Virus record (IMG/VR): IMGVR_UViG_3300025137_000332
Span: 1 to 22,281 of that record
DNA: 22,281 bases
Source of the DNA: a virus
Reading direction: 5' to 3' (one strand)
The position numbers and the translations under genes are program-made. This document shows, piece by piece, positions 155-15,000 of this stretch. The notes under the pieces are model-generated. The model had not been told where the DNA came from and made no database searches. It worked only from the letters and a program-made list of their open reading frames with translations. Position 1 is the stretch's first letter. Every line of letters begins with the position of its first letter.

Positions 155-229
155 AAGTGAAGAAAGTGCTTGACTTTGTTATCATAACATGGTATATTGA
201 TCAAGTAACAATGAGAAAGAGGTTTTATT
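155..229 (+). repeat. Promoter/RBS cassette, copy 1 of a direct repeat
   Basis: The segment carries an upstream 20-mer (155-174), a 17-bp spacer, a -10 region, GATCAAGTAA and AAAGAGGTT before the start codon. The same order and mostly the same bases recur at 820-894, about 665 bp downstream. The spacer between -35 and -10 is the most divergent part, while the upstream block, the region after the -10 and the RBS are kept. Confidence 0.8.
170..198 (+). promoter_or_regulatory. sigma70-like promoter P1 of the small-gene block
   Basis: A -35 hexamer TTGACT (170-175) is separated by exactly 17 bp from a -10 hexamer TATATT (193-198). It lies in the only gap between the first fragment and the 81-aa gene, about 30 nt before that start codon. 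The sequence around it is almost repeated at 820-894. A host-type -35/-10 promoter rather than the phage late motif suggests early transcription by unmodified host RNA polymerase; that timing is inferred. Confidence 0.8.
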
Positions 230-475
230 ATGAAGTTTGAAAAGTGGTTAGATACGTTGGTTGAAGAAAAAGGTCTTGACTTAGACCATACCTTTGAGTA
301 CAACGGCCCAGTCTATGGGATGAATATGATTCCATTGGAATCAGTGGTTGAACAAATCAAGGCGTTTCATCCTCAAACCCAAGAGATGACAAAGAATAGA
401 TTGGTTGAGATTGATTTTAAAAACGGTGATGTAATGCATTTCTTTGGTTACATTGCACAGAAAATGGCGATATAG
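230..475 (+). CDS. Hypothetical small acidic protein, 81 aa
   Basis: The start codon is ATG at 230, preceded by AAAGAGG (216-222) at good spacing and by promoter P1. The protein begins MKFEKWLDTLVEEKGLDL and ends with an IDFKNGDVMHFFGYIAQ segment; it is mixed alpha/beta in character and acidic, with no signal peptide, membrane segment or catalytic motif. It resembles in style small uncharacterised proteins of marine T4-like phages, but I cannot name a family. It is the first gene after P1, and its stop overlaps the ribosome-binding site of the next gene (AGGAG at 474-478), so the two are probably co-translated. Being first in a host-type promoter unit fits an early phage protein; the function is unknown. 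Confidence 0.75.
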   Translation: MKFEKWLDTLVEEKGLDLDHTFEYNGPVYGMNMIPLESVVEQIKAFHPQTQEMTKNRLVEIDFKNGDVMHFFGYIAQKMAI

Positions 476-486
476 GAGAATATATT

Positions 487-819
487 ATGGGATTACATAT
501 TGAAGTTTATAAGAATGGTAAGTGGGATTGCACAAATGGTGGAGTTACCTCTGGCGATATTAAAGGTCTTTGTATTGAAAACGTAAGTGGGCCGTTTAAT
601 CCAAGTGAGGATTATCCTGCTGCTCAGTTAGTTTCAAGGAATGTTATGGGTAGAACAATCGTTCACATCGTTCCTACTGCTGAGATTGAAAAGGGTTCGT
701 GGACTATGATGGGTGGACACTATGGTTCAACATCAGATTCAAGGTTCAGCGAAAAGGTTGAAGAGATGATGGGTACACCATTCTATGGGGCTCTTGCAAT
801 TCACGATAGAGTTGAATAA
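487..819 (+). CDS. Hypothetical protein, 110 aa
   Basis: The start is ATG at 487, behind an AGGAG site that overlaps the stop codon of the preceding gene. The product is soluble, with no transmembrane segment or signal peptide. It opens with a beta-like MGLHIEVYKNGKWDC, has a glycine-rich middle, and carries two histidine-containing patches (IVHIVPTAEIE and MMGGHYGSTSDSRF) that might bind a ligand or metal; that is only a guess from composition. The end (FYGALAIHDRVE) looks like a folded domain edge. No known family was recognised. It is the second gene of the P1 unit and is followed at once by the second promoter copy, so P1 may serve only this pair. Confidence 0.72.
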   Translation: MGLHIEVYKNGKWDCTNGGVTSGDIKGLCIENVSGPFNPSEDYPAAQLVSRNVMGRTIVHIVPTAEIEKGSWTMMGGHYGSTSDSRFSEKVEEMMGTPFYGALAIHDRVE

Positions 820-894
820 AAGTGAAGAAAGTGCTTGACATTGGCTAATTACTATGGTACTATGATCAAGTAAGATAAAGAAAGAGGTTATATT
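820..894 (+). repeat. Promoter/RBS cassette, copy 2 of a direct repeat
   Basis: This is the second copy of the cassette at 155-229. It has an identical 20-mer at 820-839, the same 17-bp promoter spacing, GATCAAGTAA after the -10 and AAAGAGGTT ahead of the ATG at 895. Such repeated regulatory cassettes in phages often mark places where small gene modules are gained or swapped by recombination. Confidence 0.8.
835..863 (+). promoter_or_regulatory. sigma70-like promoter P2, near-copy of P1
   Basis: A perfect -35 TTGACA (835-840) and a -10 TACTAT (858-863) are spaced by 17 bp. The 20-mer at 820-839 is identical to that at 155-174, and the sequence downstream of the -10 (GATCAAGTAA) is also shared with P1. 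It drives the run of four small genes and probably the tRNA, up to the terminator at 1769-1795. Confidence 0.82.
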
Positions 895-3251: not shown

Positions 3252-3259
3252 TATAAATA
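3252..3259 (+). promoter_or_regulatory. T4-type late promoter (TATAAATA) upstream of gp25
   Basis: An exact TATAAATA lies in the 29-nt gap between the PAAR gene and the gp25 gene, 19 nt before the latter's ATG. It is the second of three exact copies found in intergenic gaps. Confidence 0.85.
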
Positions 3260-3718: not shown

Positions 3719-5620
3719 ATGGCAACCACAGATAAAAGATTAACAATTACAGATTTAGACTTTGATGATATTAAAGCAAATCTAAAAACATTTATGCGTA
3801 ATCAATCAGAGTTTACTGATTATGATTTTGAGGGTTCTGGAATAAACGCTGTACTAGATGTGCTTGCGTATAATACACACTACCTTGCAATGAATGTAAA
3901 TATGGCTGCAAATGAAATGTTCTTGGATACTTCTTCAATCAGAAGTTCCGCTGTTTCTCATGCAAAGACTTTAGGTTATATTCCCAACTCTGTTCGGGCG
4001 CCTGTTGCATATATTGATGTTACTTTAAACAACTTTGGTGCTACCACTATTGCTACTCTTCCAAGAGGAACAAAGTTTAATGCATCCGTTGATGATGTTA
4101 ACTATGACTTTGTAACTGTTTCCGATTTTACTGCACTCGCTTCTAACAGTGTATTATCATTCTCTAACATTCCAATCTATGAGGGAACTTATACTACAAA
4201 TAGATATACAGTCAACACACAGAACGTAGATCAAAGATTTGTTCTTACGAATAATCGTGCAGATACCACAACAATGAAAGTTCAAGTGTTCCAATCATCT
4301 GACTCTACGCAATCTATAACATACACTCAAGCAACAGATATCACTCAAGCGGGTTCAACTGCTAATGTTTATTTTTTACAAGAAGTAGAAGATGGTAAGT
4401 TTGAAATATACTTTGGTGACGGTATTGTTGGTCGTGCATTATCTAATGGTAATGTTGTTGTTATAACATATGTTGTTACTAATAAGACAGCAGCAAATAC
4501 TGCTACAGGTTTTAATACATCCGCTAGTATTTCTGGTATATCAGATATAACTGTTGCAACATCTGAAGCGGCTTCTGGTGGTGCAGAAGCAGAAAGTATT
4601 AAGTCTATTAAACTTAACGCTCCTCTTGATTACGCATCACAGGGTAGAGCAGTAACACCAGATGACTACAAAGTTATCATTCCAAAAATTTATGCTAATA
4701 CTAAATCAGTTCAAGTATGGGGTGGAGAAGATAATGCCACTTCTGTATACGGTAGAGTTTATATTTCAATTGTTCCCACAACAGGAGCAGTAACTACAGC
4801 TGCTAAGGCTGACATTGTTAGAGAACTGAAAAGTCTTTATACCATTGCATCAGTGACGCCAGTTATTGTTGACCCTGTAACAACCTTTATTAGATTCCAA
4901 ACTAATTTCAAATATAACGAAAAAGATACAACACAAACAAAAGAATCTTTGATTAGTAAAGTTACTACTGCATTAACAAATTATGATTCAAATGAACTTC
5001 AAAGCTTTGAAGGTATTTTTAGACATTCTTATGTAACTGGACTTATTGATGATACGGATGATGCTATTCTATCTAACGTAACCACAGTAAAATTATCTCA
5101 ACGTATTACTCCTACTTTGAATACAGAAACAAAATATAATCTAGACTTTAACAATGCATTATACTATCCACACAGTGGACATGATGCTACTGGTGGTGGA
5201 ATACTTTCTTCTACTGGATTTAAAATTTCTGGAAATACAAATGAAATGTTTTTGAATGATGATGGTATGGGTAATATTAGAATGTATTATATCACAGGTG
5301 GTTCAACAAAAACTTATGTAAATGATACTGCTGGTACAATTGATTATGCCACTGGTACGATTGTCCTTACAGCATTAAACATTACTTCAATTTCTGATGT
5401 TGACCTTTCCACATCAAATACAATAAGAGTTGTTGTGATACCAAGTTCATATGATATTGCAGCTGTACGAAATCAAATATTAAAAATAGACTTCACTAAT
5501 TCACTTGTTGCCGCTGACGTAGATACAATTGCATCTGGTGGTTCTGCTGCTGGAACATCTTATACAACATCTACTGTTTACTCATCGTCATCAACAGCAT
5601 CAACTAGCACTGGTTATTAA
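3719..5620 (+). CDS. 6: Baseplate wedge protein gp6
   Basis: This 633-aa protein (T4 gp6 is 660 aa) directly abuts the gp25 gene and probably depends on translational coupling, since only GAGAGA (3704-3709) resembles a binding site. The N-terminal part is typical of gp6/gpJ-like wedge proteins: LDFDDIKANLKTFMRNQ (14-30), FEGSGINAVLDVLAYNTHYLA (37-57) and NEMFLDTSSIRSSAVSHAKTLGY (65-87). A middle motif FEIYFGDGIVGRAL (228-241) and LDYASQGRAVTPDDYK (303-318) also match the family. gp6 dimers form the ring holding the baseplate wedges together. The last 27 residues are Ser/Thr-rich low complexity. AGA and CGT dominate its arginine codons. Confidence 0.93.
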   Translation: MATTDKRLTITDLDFDDIKANLKTFMRNQSEFTDYDFEGSGINAVLDVLAYNTHYLAMNVNMAANEMFLDTSSIRSSAVSHAKTLGYIPNSVRAPVAYIDVTLNNFGATTIATLPRGTKFNASVDDVNYDFVTVSDFTALASNSVLSFSNIPIYEGTYTTNRYTVNTQNVDQRFVLTNNRADTTTMKVQVFQSSDSTQSITYTQATDITQAGSTANVYFLQEVEDGKFEIYFGDGIVGRALSNGNVVVITYVVTNKTAANTATGFNTSASISGISDITVATSEAASGGAEAESIKSIKLNAPLDYASQGRAVTPDDYKVIIPKIYANTKSVQVWGGEDNATSVYGRVYISIVPTTGAVTTAAKADIVRELKSLYTIASVTPVIVDPVTTFIRFQTNFKYNEKDTTQTKESLISKVTTALTNYDSNELQSFEGIFRHSYVTGLIDDTDDAILSNVTTVKLSQRITPTLNTETKYNLDFNNALYYPHSGHDATGGGILSSTGFKISGNTNEMFLNDDGMGNIRMYYITGGSTKTYVNDTAGTIDYATGTIVLTALNITSISDVDLSTSNTIRVVVIPSSYDIAAVRNQILKIDFTNSLVAADVDTIASGGSAAGTSYTTSTVYSSSSTASTSTGY

Positions 5621-5622
5621 AA

Positions 5623-8163
5623 ATGTCTAATGATAATACCCTTGTAAATAAGGTATCTCCATTAATACAAACTCAACTGCCCGAATTCATTCAGTCAGAC
5701 CATCCCCTATTTGCTAGTTTTTTAAAATCGTATTATCAATTTCTAGAAAGTGCTGAAGTAACTTTTAGTGAGGTTAATAACTATCTTGTTCAAGAAACAA
5801 CATCTCCACAATTCATTCTTGACCAACAAGGAGATAATGTTGTTCTTGAAGACTCTGTAGCAAAGTTTACTGTCGGAGAAACTATTACTGGTTTAACTTC
5901 TGGAGCTACAGCAAAGGTTCTAGTGGATGATGTAGATAATAACAAAAGACTTTTTATATCTGCACAGTCTCAATTTATTATTGGGGAAACTGTCAATGGG
6001 TCTACTTCAAACTCTTCTGGTACTATATCAAATTACAAAGCGAACCCTGTACAAAACATTCAACAACTTTTGGGTTATGCAAACGTAGACACTACTGTCT
6101 ATGATTTCTTAGATAGATTTAGAGATTCGTTCCTAGACGGAATGGTTGACAACATTAATAGTGGTGTTGATAAAAGAAAACTAATTAAAAATATTCGTGA
6201 CCTCTACATATCAAAGGGTACAAAAAAAGGACATGAATTATTCTTCAGACTTCTTTTAAATGAAGAAGCAACTATTTCTTATCCTACAGAAAATCTTTTA
6301 AGACCGTCTGATGGTCAGTGGACTTTCAGAACTATTATGAAAGTTCAAGAACTAACTGGTTTTGTTAGTGAACTTATTGGTCAAACGATTACTGGTCAGT
6401 CATCAACTGCTACTGCAATTCCAACATCAACTCTTGGATACAGAGAATCTAACACAAGTATTCAAGAAATTGAAATTGATACAAACTTAATTGTAGGAAC
6501 ATTCGCCGTTGGGGAAACTGTCAAAGGAACTTCTGTTACAAATGACACAGACGTATCCTTTAAAATTCTAGGAATGGTAACAGGAGCTACAGTTTCAAAT
6601 CGTGGTCTTTATTACACTGCTGGACAATCTGTTCCAATTGCTACAGGGGGAAGTGCTACAGCAACTGCTACAGTAGAAACTGTTGGTGTGGGTGGAGTTG
6701 ATAATATTATAATTGATACGGTTGGTAGTAACTATGCAACTGGTGACACAATTAACTTTAATAATACTGGAACAGATGGTACTGGTGCTGCTGCTCAAAT
6801 TTCTGTAGTTGGTGGAGCCCTTGCTCCAGAGACAGGTGATGTTAATGAATATGGAATGGCACTTACAGACCATATTTTATTAGAAGACTTTACTCAATCA
6901 GTAATGGGTGATACTTATCATGGAACAAAGATTGTTCTTGAGGATGCTACATTTGGTAATGCGCCAGGCAGTAGTGTAAATGAACGTGGTTCTATTACAG
7001 ACATTAGATTAATTAATAGTGGTACAGGATATAAAAGTCTTCCCTTTATTTCTTCTATATCAACTGCTTCTGGTACTGGAGCTAAACTTCTTGGTAAATC
7101 AACAAGTGGTATTGGACAGATTGAAGGTATTACATTCTCAAATTTTGGTTTCAATTACACCTCTGCACCAACGATAAGTCCACTACGTCATGTTATCATA
7201 ACAGGAATAACTGGAACATTTTCTGCTGGGAATTCATTAACATCTCATACAGGTAAAGTTGTAACCTTTGATACTGTAAGACAACTTATGACAATTGACA
7301 CAACAGCTAATCTAGCTGTAGGAAATACAATTGCTACTTCGGGTGCTAGTGGTGTTGTTGCTGATGTAAACATTGGTGTTGCAACTGCAACTATCGGACA
7401 GGTTGGTACAACAACTGGCGATTTCTTAGGAGAGTTTGGTAAAGCATCTTCAGATGTTATGAGAATTCAAGACTCTAATTATTACCAAGACTATTCCTAT
7501 GTGGTTAAAGTTGGTGAGGGTATTGCTAGTTGGAGAAGTGCAATCAAGAAAACTGTTCACCCTGCTGGTTGGGCTGTGTTCGGAGAAGTTGCAACAGTTA
7601 ACAAAGTAAGTGCTGGAGTACAGGTACAACAGGTAGAATCATTTACACCAGAACTCGCATCTCTATTCTCTACAATCTTTACAACTATTTTTGGTAGAAG
7701 ACTTGGTGTAGCAGGAACAACAACACTTAGGGCAAACGCTAAGTTGGGTAGTAATGCAATATTAAACTCTGGTGAAAGAGATGTTACATTAACAAAAGTT
7801 AATACTATATTTGTAGGAACTGCCAGAGTAGCAAAGTATACTGGGCCCACATTAGATTTACTTCCTAAGTACGCATTTTCAATTGGGCCAAGAACTACTG
7901 AAAATACACTTGCACACTATCCAACTATAGTGTCTAAAGCAAAGAGCGATACAAATGATTTTGCATATTTTAATATTGGACAATTTGCAGATATAAAAAT
8001 TAACCAAGTATCTGATAGTAATGGTAACATACCAGCTTCAGCATTCGTCACAAAGTCAAATGTGCCACCGCCTGGATCTATTGAGATATCAAATACTTCT
8101 AGTAAGTTTGATACCACTAATATCAGTTTTGACAGTAACTTGAAGACTTTTGATGCACAGTAG
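5623..8163 (+). CDS. Large baseplate-associated structural protein in the gp7 position
   Basis: The start ATG 5623 is 2 nt after the gp6 stop, with no clear ribosome-binding site, so coupling to gp6 is likely. The 846-aa product opens with QTQLPEFIQSDHPLFASFLK and SYYQFLE (17-42), a motif I recall from large baseplate proteins of marine T4-like phages. A helical block at about 143-240 carries ISKGTKKGHELFFRLLLNE and PTENLLRPSDGQW. Residues 80-135 and several later stretches contain FTVGETITGLTSGATAKV-type repeats; 320-520 holds repeats of the SNRGLYYTAG / NSGTGYKSLP kind. By gene order (gp25, gp6, this gene, ..., gp8) it occupies the place of T4 gp7, the long wedge protein (1032 aa), but sequence similarity to gp7 cannot be asserted by eye. 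A structural role is very likely; equivalence to gp7 is inference. Confidence 0.8.
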   Translation: MSNDNTLVNKVSPLIQTQLPEFIQSDHPLFASFLKSYYQFLESAEVTFSEVNNYLVQETTSPQFILDQQGDNVVLEDSVAKFTVGETITGLTSGATAKVLVDDVDNNKRLFISAQSQFIIGETVNGSTSNSSGTISNYKANPVQNIQQLLGYANVDTTVYDFLDRFRDSFLDGMVDNINSGVDKRKLIKNIRDLYISKGTKKGHELFFRLLLNEEATISYPTENLLRPSDGQWTFRTIMKVQELTGFVSELIGQTITGQSSTATAIPTSTLGYRESNTSIQEIEIDTNLIVGTFAVGETVKGTSVTNDTDVSFKILGMVTGATVSNRGLYYTAGQSVPIATGGSATATATVETVGVGGVDNIIIDTVGSNYATGDTINFNNTGTDGTGAAAQISVVGGALAPETGDVNEYGMALTDHILLEDFTQSVMGDTYHGTKIVLEDATFGNAPGSSVNERGSITDIRLINSGTGYKSLPFISSISTASGTGAKLLGKSTSGIGQIEGITFSNFGFNYTSAPTISPLRHVIITGITGTFSAGNSLTSHTGKVVTFDTVRQLMTIDTTANLAVGNTIATSGASGVVADVNIGVATATIGQVGTTTGDFLGEFGKASSDVMRIQDSNYYQDYSYVVKVGEGIASWRSAIKKTVHPAGWAVFGEVATVNKVSAGVQVQQVESFTPELASLFSTIFTTIFGRRLGVAGTTTLRANAKLGSNAILNSGERDVTLTKVNTIFVGTARVAKYTGPTLDLLPKYAFSIGPRTTENTLAHYPTIVSKAKSDTNDFAYFNIGQFADIKINQVSDSNGNIPASAFVTKSNVPPPGSIEISNTSSKFDTTNISFDSNLKTFDAQ

Positions 8164-10536: not shown

Positions 10537-12045
10537 ATGGCAGCGATAATTACAGAAAAATTTAGACAAGCAAATGCAGATACATTTTTTGCAAACTTGT
10601 CTTCCAGCAAATATTATATGTTTGTTGGAAAGTCACAACCGTGGACTTCAGAAGGTGCGGCTTCGGATAGTAATCCACCCACACCAATTGATAGTGTAGC
10701 GCCCGAATCTTATTATTGGGATGATATGTTGGCAGCAAAACTAATTGCTGGTTCAAACATTTCTTATGTAGTTCCTCGTAGAAATTTCTCTACAAGTTCT
10801 GCATTCGATATGTATCGTCACGATGTTTCGGGAACAACTACTACTGGTAACTACCCAGCGAAAACAACTTCGTCAAGTGGTGCTACTAGTGTATATGATT
10901 CTACATATTACTTCTTAACAAGTGCTAATCGTGTGTATAAGGTATTATATAATGGTGACCAACTTCAAACTGGTGCATCTAATATTTCGGGTTCTGAACC
11001 AACAACAGAATCAACTACACCATTTTGGCAGGATGGGAATTATTATCTAAAGTATATGTATTCACTAACTACTTCAGAAGTTCAAAACTTTTTAACTACT
11101 GATTTTATGCCTGTATCAAATACTGCAAACGCTGTAGTTGATAGGGGTATCTATGTATTTTCGGTAACAACTGCTGGGTCATCGTATCCAAATGGAACTT
11201 TCTATTCACCACTTCGTGGTGATGGTACTGGTGGTAAGATTGCTCTCGTTGTTGCTGGTGGTTCAATTACAGAATTTGGTTCTAATAATTCAACCAGTTC
11301 ATATATGTATGCGCCGGGCAGTGGATATAGTTTTGCAAACATCGACCTTAGTGCTGCTAATATCTTTACAGACAATGGTTGTTCAACTGCAATCTCTGGT
11401 TCAGTTGCAACTGCATGGGGGAATGCGACTACTGGTGTTATCAGAACAATGATTGAACCAAAGGGTGGTCATGGTTCTGACGATATCGCTGAACTTGGTG
11501 GACATTATATTATGGTTCAAGGTAAATTTGAACCTACTGATACTGATGCAACACAAGTCAATGATTTCAGAAGAGTTGGTTTGTTAAAGAATCCATTCGC
11601 TACTGCGTCTGGTGCTGTTTCAACCCTTTCAACTGCAAGACAAACTAGAGCAGTTATTTTTAGTGGTTCGATTTCAACTAACTTCCAATCAGATGAAAAG
11701 ATTACACAAGCAACAACTGGTGCTCAAGGTAGAGTAGTAGAATTTGATGCTTCCAATAAAATACTATATTACGTTCAAGAAAAGTATACCACTTACGGCC
11801 TAGATAGTAGTGGTAATATGACATTGTTCTCTGGTGCAAATGCAATAACTGGTTCAACATCTTCTGCTAGTTATACACCAAACACAAGTTCTTCTGCAAC
11901 TGTAAATACAACACTATTTGCTAGTGGATATTCAGTACCAGAACTAACTCAAGATACAGGAGAAGTTCTGTACGTTGAAAATAGAAGAGCAATCTCAAGA
12001 GCAAGTGACCAAACAGAAGATATTAAAGTCGTAGTGGAATTTTAA
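10537..12045 (+). CDS. 8: Baseplate wedge protein, gp8-like
   Basis: The start is ATG 10537, behind ATAGGAAAA (10523-10531). The N-terminal 200 residues fit the gp8 pattern of T4-like phages of marine bacteria: MAAIITEKFRQANADTFFAN (1-20), KYYMFVGKSQPW (25-36), YYWDDMLAAKLI (59-70), SYVVPRRNF (76-84) and WQDGNYYLKYMYSLTTSEV (164-182). In T4, gp8 (334 aa) forms dimers in the wedge that link gp7 and gp10. This protein is longer (502 aa): about 390-440 holds an SDEKITQATTGAQGRVVEFD segment related to repeats in two neighbouring virion proteins, and the end is Ser/Thr-rich before a conserved-looking ENRRAISRASDQTEDIKVVV tail. It is 3 nt upstream of the 2061-aa gene. Confidence 0.85.
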   Translation: MAAIITEKFRQANADTFFANLSSSKYYMFVGKSQPWTSEGAASDSNPPTPIDSVAPESYYWDDMLAAKLIAGSNISYVVPRRNFSTSSAFDMYRHDVSGTTTTGNYPAKTTSSSGATSVYDSTYYFLTSANRVYKVLYNGDQLQTGASNISGSEPTTESTTPFWQDGNYYLKYMYSLTTSEVQNFLTTDFMPVSNTANAVVDRGIYVFSVTTAGSSYPNGTFYSPLRGDGTGGKIALVVAGGSITEFGSNNSTSSYMYAPGSGYSFANIDLSAANIFTDNGCSTAISGSVATAWGNATTGVIRTMIEPKGGHGSDDIAELGGHYIMVQGKFEPTDTDATQVNDFRRVGLLKNPFATASGAVSTLSTARQTRAVIFSGSISTNFQSDEKITQATTGAQGRVVEFDASNKILYYVQEKYTTYGLDSSGNMTLFSGANAITGSTSSASYTPNTSSSATVNTTLFASGYSVPELTQDTGEVLYVENRRAISRASDQTEDIKVVVEF

Positions 12046-12048
12046 AAC

Positions 12049-15000
12049 ATGGCACAGAAAACAGATTTAAACGTATCACCATATTATGATGACTTCAATG
12101 TTGACGATGATTTTCATCGTGTACTCTTTCGGCCTGGATTTGCAATCCAAGCAAGAGAACTAACTCAACTACAGTCAATCTTACAAAACCAAGTTGAAAA
12201 GCATGGAAGACATATGTTCAAAGAAGGAACACTTGTTATCCCAGGCCAAACTGGTTTTACTAATGAATTTTATGCAGTCAAACTGCAAAGTACTTTTAAC
12301 TCTGGTGCAATTGCTGGATACCTCTCATCTTATGTTGGTTCAACCATCACAGGTGCAACCTCTGGTGTTACTGCAAGAGTTGTTGCTGTCGATGCTGCTA
12401 CAACTACAGACCCAGAAACTTTATATGTAAAGTATCTATCGTCTGCAACTAATACTTCTGGTACTTCGGTTGCAAACGTAACAACAGAGTTTATTGATGG
12501 GGAATCTATTCAATCAGATATAGTAATCAATTCATTAAATGCTGGTTCTAACTCTGCAACTCTTTTATCATCTGCTGCTACTGCACAAGGGTCTTCTGCA
12601 AGTATACAAGAAGGTGTATACTTCATTCGTGGAAATTTTGTTCGTGTGACAGAACAGAGAATTGTTCTGGACAAGTATACAAACACTCCTTCTTATCGTG
12701 TCGGTCTTACTGTCACAGAAAGTTTAATTACACCAGAAGCAGATACTTCTCTTTTAGATAATGCTACTGGTTCATCTAATGTAAACGCTAAAGGCGCTCA
12801 CAGACTTAAATACACATTGACCCTTGCAAAACTAGACCTTGGTTCTGCCGCTGATGATAACTTTGTCGAACTCTTCAGAGTTCAAAGGGGTATCATTTCT
12901 CAGAAGGCAAGAAATACAGAATATTCTGTTCTTGGTGAGACTTTTGCAAGACGTACTTTTGATGAGTCTGGTGATTATGCAGTTCGTCCTTTCGATATTG
13001 ATATTCGTGAGACTTTAAACGATGGATTGAACAACGGTCTTTATTCTGCTAATGCAAATACAGATAGTGGAAACACTGCATCTGAACAGTTGATGACAGT
13101 ACAAGTTTCGCCTGGAAAGGCATATGTAAAGGGATATGAAATTGAAACCGTATCTCCATCATTCATTGATATTAATAAACCTAGAACTACAGCAGAGTTT
13201 GATAGTGCTGTTACTCCTATGGAAGTGGGTAACTTCGCAAGAGTTCAAAAGGTATTCGGTTCACCAGATCTTCACAGTGATGAAGAGGGTACGTCTGCAA
13301 TTACTCCATATAAAACTGTATCTCTAGTTGATAAAGTAACTTCTACAAGAGGTGCAATTGCTAGTGGTGGAACAGTTCTTGGATTTGCTCGTGTTAAAGG
13401 ATTTGAACACGAATCAAATAACCTTGGGTCAAGTACACATTACCTAACTAAAGCTAGTGTAGATAACGCTGAATTTAAATTATATCTTTTTGATATTCGT
13501 ATGATTACGAAACTAACAGTCAGTGCTGCCCCATCACCTTCTAACAATGTTCCTATCGGTGCAAAGATTACTGGTGTTAATAGTGGTGCAACTGGTTTTG
13601 TAACAACTGGTACTACAAGTACAACTATCAATCTTATTACAACTGTTGGTACATTCCAAACTGGTGAAAAAATACTTTCAACATCAAGTGCTGAGACTGA
13701 CCAGATTGTAGAGAATTCTTCAAACGCTGATATTACTATTAGTACAGTTACAGGTAGAGACTTTAGTGAAGTCAAACAAGTATTCATGGATGACCCACAA
13801 AGTGGTCAAGATTTTACTGCTAACCTTAAACTTTCAAACCAACTTAAACTTAGTGGTGTTGTAACAACAACTTCTGGCGACCCAACCGTAACTGGATTTG
13901 GTACGTCTTTCACTACAGAACTTAAAGCTGGTGATCATATTAACATTGACGGTGTTGGTGAGAAAATTGTTGCAAGTGTTACTAATGCTACAGAGTTAGA
14001 ACTAACCACTAATGGTGGTACTGCACAAACTACAGTTGGTCTAACAAGATTGCGTGCTCAATTACAAGACCAAGAGAAAAACCTTTCTCTTAGAAAAGTA
14101 AGAAAAACAAATACAAAAACTTTAAAGACTGATGGTAATGGAAATGTTTCACAAACCTTTATTACTGTTCGTAAACAATTTATTAAAACATCAAACGGTT
14201 CTGGTATTATAACTTTCGGTGCTGCTACTGGTGAGACTTTCTCTGCAAAATCTAATGTAGATTATATTGCACAAGTATTGACTGCTGGTTCTGCAATCGG
14301 TGGTTCTGGTACAACAGCTGCTGCTGGTGATATTCTTAATCTCAACTCCACACTTGTTACTGCATTTACAATTTCTGGTAACTCACTTTCGATTACTGCC
14401 CCCGCTCTATTAGGTAGTGGTGCAGAAGTTAAGTTAGTTGCTACCGTAACAAGATCTGTGTCAGTTGAAAAAAGTAAAACTAAAAATGCTTCTCATCTTG
14501 TTCTTGTAGATAATGATGTTGCTGAATATGGTACATCTGCTAGACACAAAGATATCTCTCTTGGTCGTGGTGATGTTTATAAGTTACTCGCAGTATACGA
14601 TTCGGAATCTGGTAGTAATCCAGTTATTCCACAATGGACACTTACAGGTGTGAGTGGAACATTCGTAAAGGGTGAGATTATTACTGGTGCAACTTCTGGT
14701 GTTACTGCAACAGTGGTTAATCCAACAACTCCACTTACTTTTGTACCAACAATTTCTACTGCAAATTTCACTTCTAGTGAAAAGATTACAGGTGGAACAT
14801 CTGCCGCTACTGCAACTCTGGATACCTTTACTGCTGGTTCAAGAGATATTACATCTAGGTTTGAACTAGATAATGGACAAAGAGATAACTATTATGATGT
14901 CTCTAGAATAAGAAGAAAGGCTGGTCAAAGTGAACCCGCTGGTAAACTGTTAATCGTATGTCATTATTTTGACCACGGTACAGGTGATTTCTTTTCTGTA

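Follow-up and report, generated by a model that had tools for sequence, protein, structure and literature searches.

Repeated early-promoter cassettes that lie between small genes and are tied to modular shuffling have been described for T4-like myoviruses under the name PeSLs, promoter early stem-loops (Arbiol et al. 2010; Comeau et al. 2014; as summarised in PMC4503421). The early promoters of T4 are strong host sigma-70 promoters with an A-rich upstream stretch and a TGn element and require no phage proteins; their shut-off persists without AsiA and is not fully explained (PMC2988021). A scattered regulatory site is known from the cluster A mycobacteriophages (L5, TipsytheTRex), where the stoperators are asymmetric and are bound by the monomeric immunity repressor of these temperate phages (PMC9283540). 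Melnitz (MZ577097), a Methylophilales phage and T4-like myophage whose host is the OM43 bacterium H5P1, was reported to have 31 predicted early promoters, and its description mentions no palindrome, inverted repeat or operator (PMC9004378).

The locus described here resembles the PeSLs, as far as the summary of these goes, in that a cassette is repeated intergenically before small genes, that modules are shuffled with cassettes at the junctions, and that a quarter of the promoters with the palindrome described below have a terminator-like hairpin upstream. It differs in that the two copies in the window, by which we mean the whole 22,281-base stretch of DNA that was analysed, are without a stem-loop, and in that a palindrome in the promoter spacer and further palindromes inside genes are absent from the citing accounts of the PeSLs. 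The general build of the T4 early promoters is found here as well, whereas the 13-bp palindrome, TGTTNTNANAACA, is wholly absent from T4. The likeness to the operators and stoperators of the mycobacteriophages consists of a 13-bp site that recurs about 26 times throughout the genome, at some promoters among other places; the site of the present phages is, however, symmetric, and these phages belong to the T4-like group, no integrase having been reported in Melnitz. The latter phage has homologues of the small genes A, B and C and of the gene that precedes the first promoter, and it has the same promoters, but in another gene order. As far as can be judged from sequence, the new element is the dyad in the spacer together with its scatter through the genome, and the two promoters of the window, P1 and P2, are members of a multi-copy, movable promoter class of marine T4-like phages, presumably of early timing.

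Two copies of a promoter cassette

The window is an entire IMG/VR record and represents an incomplete genome. It comes from a relative of Melnitz, a marine T4-like myophage, of which it is a fragment. Its genes include those for T4-type baseplate proteins (a gp5-like OB domain and PAAR) and a gp25-like ORF, the latter assigned by homology to Melnitz, and its start has about 77% DNA identity to that phage across 23% of the first 3 kb. Behind P1 lie the small genes A (230-475; 81 aa, phrog_6004) and B (487-819; 110 aa, phrog_6045), both of unassigned function; the Melnitz homologue of A stands directly behind a dyad promoter. P2 is followed by gene C (895-1131; 78 aa, phrog_7799), which is among the commonest first genes behind the dyad promoters of relatives, and by three more small ORFs of the same unit (1131-1677; 61, 58 and 61 aa). 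The putative early module ends with a tRNA-Arg(TCT) (1684-1761) and is closed directly after it by a terminator-like hairpin (1766-1793), which is followed by the T4-type late promoter motif TATAAATA (1799-1806), 26 nt before the start codon of the gp5-like gene; all of these features are on the plus strand. The same motif occurs at 3252 and 8176, 26-34 nt ahead of structural ORFs, and its count in the window shows no excess over chance. The arrangement would fit an early module followed by late structural genes. The small-gene module and its tRNA-Arg (1-1761) immediately precede the baseplate genes, whereas in Melnitz the homologues of this module lie next to tRNA-Arg and rpsU, at a distance of about 40 kb; the module seems to have moved as one block.

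The preliminary description had reported a shared 20-mer, a 17-bp spacing, GATCAAGTAA after the -10 and AAAGAGGTT before the ATG, and all of these were found again in both blocks (155-229 and 820-894), together with sigma-70 hexamers and a TGn element, each block standing ahead of an ATG. More specifically, the 20-mer AAGTGAAGAAAGTGCTTGAC occupies 155-174 and 820-839 on the plus strand and comprises the A-rich upstream stretch and most of the -35. It is expected 0.01 times on the basis of shuffling. Within the window only these two copies exist, even when up to 3 mismatches are allowed, and 16 stretches of viral contigs contain the exact 20-mer. P1 (170-198, plus strand) consists of TTGACT (170-175), a 17-bp spacer with TGG, and TATATT (193-198), and is conserved in three near-identical contigs (L003, L007 and L016). 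P2 (835-863, plus strand) consists of TTGACA (835-840), a 17-bp spacer with TGG, and TACTAT (858-863). The conserved leader of the first copy (199-229, plus strand) carries GATCAAGTAA at 199-208 and AAAGAGGTT, the ribosome-binding region, at 216-224, with the ATG at 230; in the second copy (864-894, plus strand) the same elements lie at 864-873 and 881-889, with the ATG at 895.

Both promoters have -35 and -10 hexamers within the 16-18 bp distance of sigma-70 promoters, and a TGn element. A T4 middle promoter, in which a MotA box takes the place of the -35, is ruled out for both, the TTGACT and TTGACA being intact. A promoter scanner applied to the window returned 7 sites against 10 expected in shuffled sequence, which by itself gives no support, and the short core AAAGTGCTTGAC...TANNNT is present in at least 120 stretches, mostly of unrelated viral contigs. 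Since the strong extended -35 (AAAGTGCTTGAC) is generic when taken alone and the scanner is uninformative, it is the joint context, together with the relatives, on which the claim depends.

A gapless alignment of the two blocks over 90 nt (145-234 and 810-899, 665 bp apart) gave 77% identity. Outside the -35/-10 core the identity is 84%, the highest of all pairs of class members that were compared. The spacers had been said to differ, which is correct, and the place at which they do so is a 13-bp palindrome that only the first copy has: the dyad TGTTATCATAACA (177-189, plus strand), our candidate operator, at which 8 of the 13 positions differ from P2 in a direct comparison. The statement that no phage-specific box is apparent therefore does not stand, as the spacer of P1 holds the box. 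P2, whose spacer contains no dyad, looks like a copy in which the operator was lost or replaced and the polymerase contacts and the leader were kept. Promoters ahead of the same gene are less similar (0.44 for P1 and the promoter of Melnitz gene A, 0.46 for P2 and that of Melnitz gene C), and this suggests copying or homogenisation inside one genome. Yet the mean similarity of promoters within genomes is only slightly higher than that between genomes, so that homogenisation is no more than suggestive.

The spacer dyad and its distribution

The spacers of the relatives contain TGTT-N-T-N-A-N-AACA, the 13-bp dyad TGTTNTNANAACA, and judged by these relatives no other part typifies the promoter class as well as its spacer does. 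In Melnitz there are 26 dyads in 141.5 kb, where a first-order Markov model predicts 0.6. Permuted half-sites (n=29) gave 0-3 copies each in the same genome, and variants of the dyad with gaps of 0, 2, 3 or 5 did not occur at all. Ten of the dyads are located in TTGAC promoters, ten promoters matching the exact dyad-promoter pattern, and 16 are found elsewhere. Many promoter-like sites of these phages, 22 of 32 in Melnitz, are without the dyad, which speaks against the operator reading given below.

About 190 unique dyad promoters were gathered from the fetched contigs, a set from which prevalence cannot be read, since part of it was fetched with the pattern itself; Melnitz, and the loci retrieved through proteins B and C, were obtained without recourse to that pattern. 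With a slightly looser pattern an ORF that starts with ATG follows 201 of 220 sites (median length 93 aa). The earlier suggestion of a conserved promoter class is thereby supported, and relatives hold many copies of it. The ORF starts at a median of 32 nt, and mostly 30-39 nt, after the -10. The first genes belong to many unrelated families, among them DUF932 proteins, gene C and SprT-like proteins.

The dyad is lacking (count of zero) in T4, KVP40, P-SSM2, Syn9, Mosig and Shewanella phage 1/4, and HTVC008M has three dyads, none of them in a promoter of this pattern. A BLAST search with the cassette against named phages produced, beyond the four Melnitz strains, matches at chance level only.

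Dyads also occur within structural genes of the window: TGTTGTTATAACA at 4456-4468, TGTTATCATAACA at 7191-7203, TGTTATCAGAACA at 11436-11448 and TGTTGTAACAACA at 13857-13869 (no strand assigned). In the six dyad-bearing records together there are 36 such in-gene dyads against about 4.7 expected from synonymous-codon shuffles, an excess of about 8-fold. The ORF dyads outside promoters number 11 in Melnitz, 4 in the window and 8, 5, 5 and 3 in the others, and the respective expectations are 1.2, 0.21, 1.89, 0.6, 0.6 and 0.16. Each genome contributes only a small number (3-11), and the records are related, Melnitz and G027 being close relatives; the excess is modest per genome yet consistent in six of six records. 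The controls gave 0 against 1.18 (Mosig) and 3 against 0.84 (HTVC008M), in sum 3 against 2.0. An in-gene excess is what a network of binding sites would leave behind, and promoter tuning alone would be hard-pressed to explain it.

A candidate operator and competing explanations

We lean slightly towards a mobile, PeSL-like early cassette of promoter plus leader that carries, in its spacer, an operator for a DNA-binding protein by which the early promoters would be shut off. An operator function of the dyad is likely, and the explanation that we would put first is that a phage protein represses these promoters. In each movable unit an A-rich upstream stretch precedes a strong host sigma-70 promoter of the form CTTGACA, 17 bp, TGn, TATAMT, after which come a short leader and the ribosome-binding site; the unit stands ahead of one to several small genes. 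Such units would be read by the host RNA polymerase, presumably at once upon infection. Most copies, including P1, carry the candidate operator TGTTNTNANAACA wholly between the -35 and the -10, and a sequence-specific DNA-binding protein, probably dimeric and phage-encoded, would occupy the dyad, block RNA polymerase and so turn the early genes off. P2, with its dyad putatively lost, would escape repression, and the same protein might bind the in-gene dyads, possibly as roadblocks.

Marine T4-like phages are abundant, and an operator inside their early promoters would provide a direct mechanism of shut-off and would link movable early-gene cassettes with a shared regulatory site, two subjects that are usually handled separately. 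P1 and P2 form a natural pair, near-identical outside the core, with and without the candidate operator. A genome-wide network of symmetric 13-bp operators, located in promoter spacers as well as in genes and bound by a predicted phage protein, is a more tentative and rather doubtful proposition. If true, the network would shut the early promoters off and perhaps block elongation or organise the genome, and it would constitute a stoperator-like system outside temperate phages, borne on shuffling promoter cassettes.

It is unlikely, in our estimate, that the dyad is instead an operator for a regulator of the host, one which the phage either uses to its advantage or has to obey. This possibility draws some support from the search for a regulator in the phage, considering that Pfam and PHROG scans of the Melnitz proteins returned no convincing helix-turn-helix, and no phage regulator, among the best 25 families per batch. 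However, when a stricter promoter pattern was run across 84,980 bacterial and archaeal species, the 38 matches were scattered, mostly over Firmicutes, and none was in a contig labelled OM43 or SAR11. Moreover, three bacterial genomes of 2.3, 5.5 and 5.5 Mb contained 11, 12 and 16 dyads, which is close to the reversed-pattern control and thus at background level. A host-encoded regulator keeps some probability, since a Melnitz tRNA, used as a probe for the host genome, retrieved no OM43 genome.

Two phage proteins were considered as the regulator, and neither is supported as a DNA-binding protein. For gene C a three-helix model (pLDDT 88) was obtained without a fold match in the PDB, and the dyad-free P-SSM2 has gene C as well. 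The other is a basic protein of 177 aa, encoded in Melnitz (L018) at 35673-36206 downstream of tRNA-Arg and rpsU, which is found in five of five dyad-rich records and is missing from all nine others. The structure predicted for it is of low confidence (pLDDT 73) and displays no DNA-binding fold. This protein is only a lead, as shared ancestry could explain the co-occurrence. Homologues of it were present in about 50 of the fetched loci.

A purely recombinational role, in which identical promoters of PeSL type are kept for the exchange of small-gene modules and the dyad is incidental, appears about equally improbable. The variation in gene order agrees with such a role. With u for the gene that precedes P1 and P for a promoter, the species of the window has the order u-P-A-B-P-C (L003, L007 and L016 alike), and relatives have u-P-C-B-P (L008, L015, L181, L182), P-C..u-B-P (L144-L147, G022), P..P-C-B (L148, L149, L153-L156) or u-C-P (L226, L234, L268, L281). 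Melnitz has C and B at 32-33 kb and, about 6 kb off at 39 kb, A with a dyad promoter of its own. Promoter-gene modules are thus reshuffled among relatives, and the rearrangement junctions often coincide with promoters. Terminator-like hairpins, which were found upstream of neither window copy, precede 27% of the dyad promoters (51 of 190) against 3.9% of random stretches, and the flank identity of P1 and P2 (0.84) exceeds that of all other pairs compared. Nevertheless, both copies are retained 665 bp apart in the three near-identical contigs, where no product of a recombinational deletion between P1 and P2 was seen. The shuffling of small genes proposed in the preliminary description is therefore borne out as far as the reshuffled orders are concerned, and recombination between the promoters as its cause is not. 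In addition, exchange of modules leaves unexplained why dyads occur in genes and why P1 and P2 diverge just at the dyad.

We regard as less likely again that the dyad is a positive element, or a preferred spacer, that strengthens promoters for the host polymerase without any dedicated protein. The early promoters of T4 have extra conserved bases beyond the hexamers, which are thought to optimise polymerase contacts (PMC2988021), and the spacer is where such bases would fall. In one set of relatives, however, the dyad starts 0, 1, 2 or 4 nt past the -35 hexamer, always within the spacer, and hence its distance from the -35 varies by up to 4 bp. The great majority of the collected dyads sit in a 17-bp spacer, and entries with 19 bp arise where one of these sites is read to a second -10 that overlaps the first. 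An activator is expected to hold one helical phase and a blocking protein need not, and the variable offset would for that reason suit steric blocking better than a phase-dependent activator. Enrichment of the dyad in genes, away from promoters, also argues against a positive element, as do Mosig and HTVC008M, T4-like phages of marine bacterial hosts that have promoter-like sites without the dyad. A hairpin promoter as used by the virion RNA polymerase of phage N4, with the dyad extruded as a stem, has the short inverted repeat inside the promoter in its favour but is very improbable, given that no covariation links the opposite middle arm positions 5 and 9 (0.251, against 0.239 after shuffling), a result that makes a hairpin unlikely, that the sigma-70 hexamers are intact and that Melnitz encodes no RNA polymerase (PMC9004378).

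First genes and a second promoter type

Genes of the DUF932 family (TIGR03299-type) stand behind dyad promoters in 28 places, for example at Melnitz 136591 and in relatives such as L245, and are the commonest first genes. Melnitz also has a second recurrent, dyad-free promoter type, AAAGCTATTGACTTT...TATTAT/TACTAT (L018:36621 and L018:48652). Promoters of the AAAGCTATTGACTTT type precede a putative endonuclease and an ssDNA-binding protein gene.
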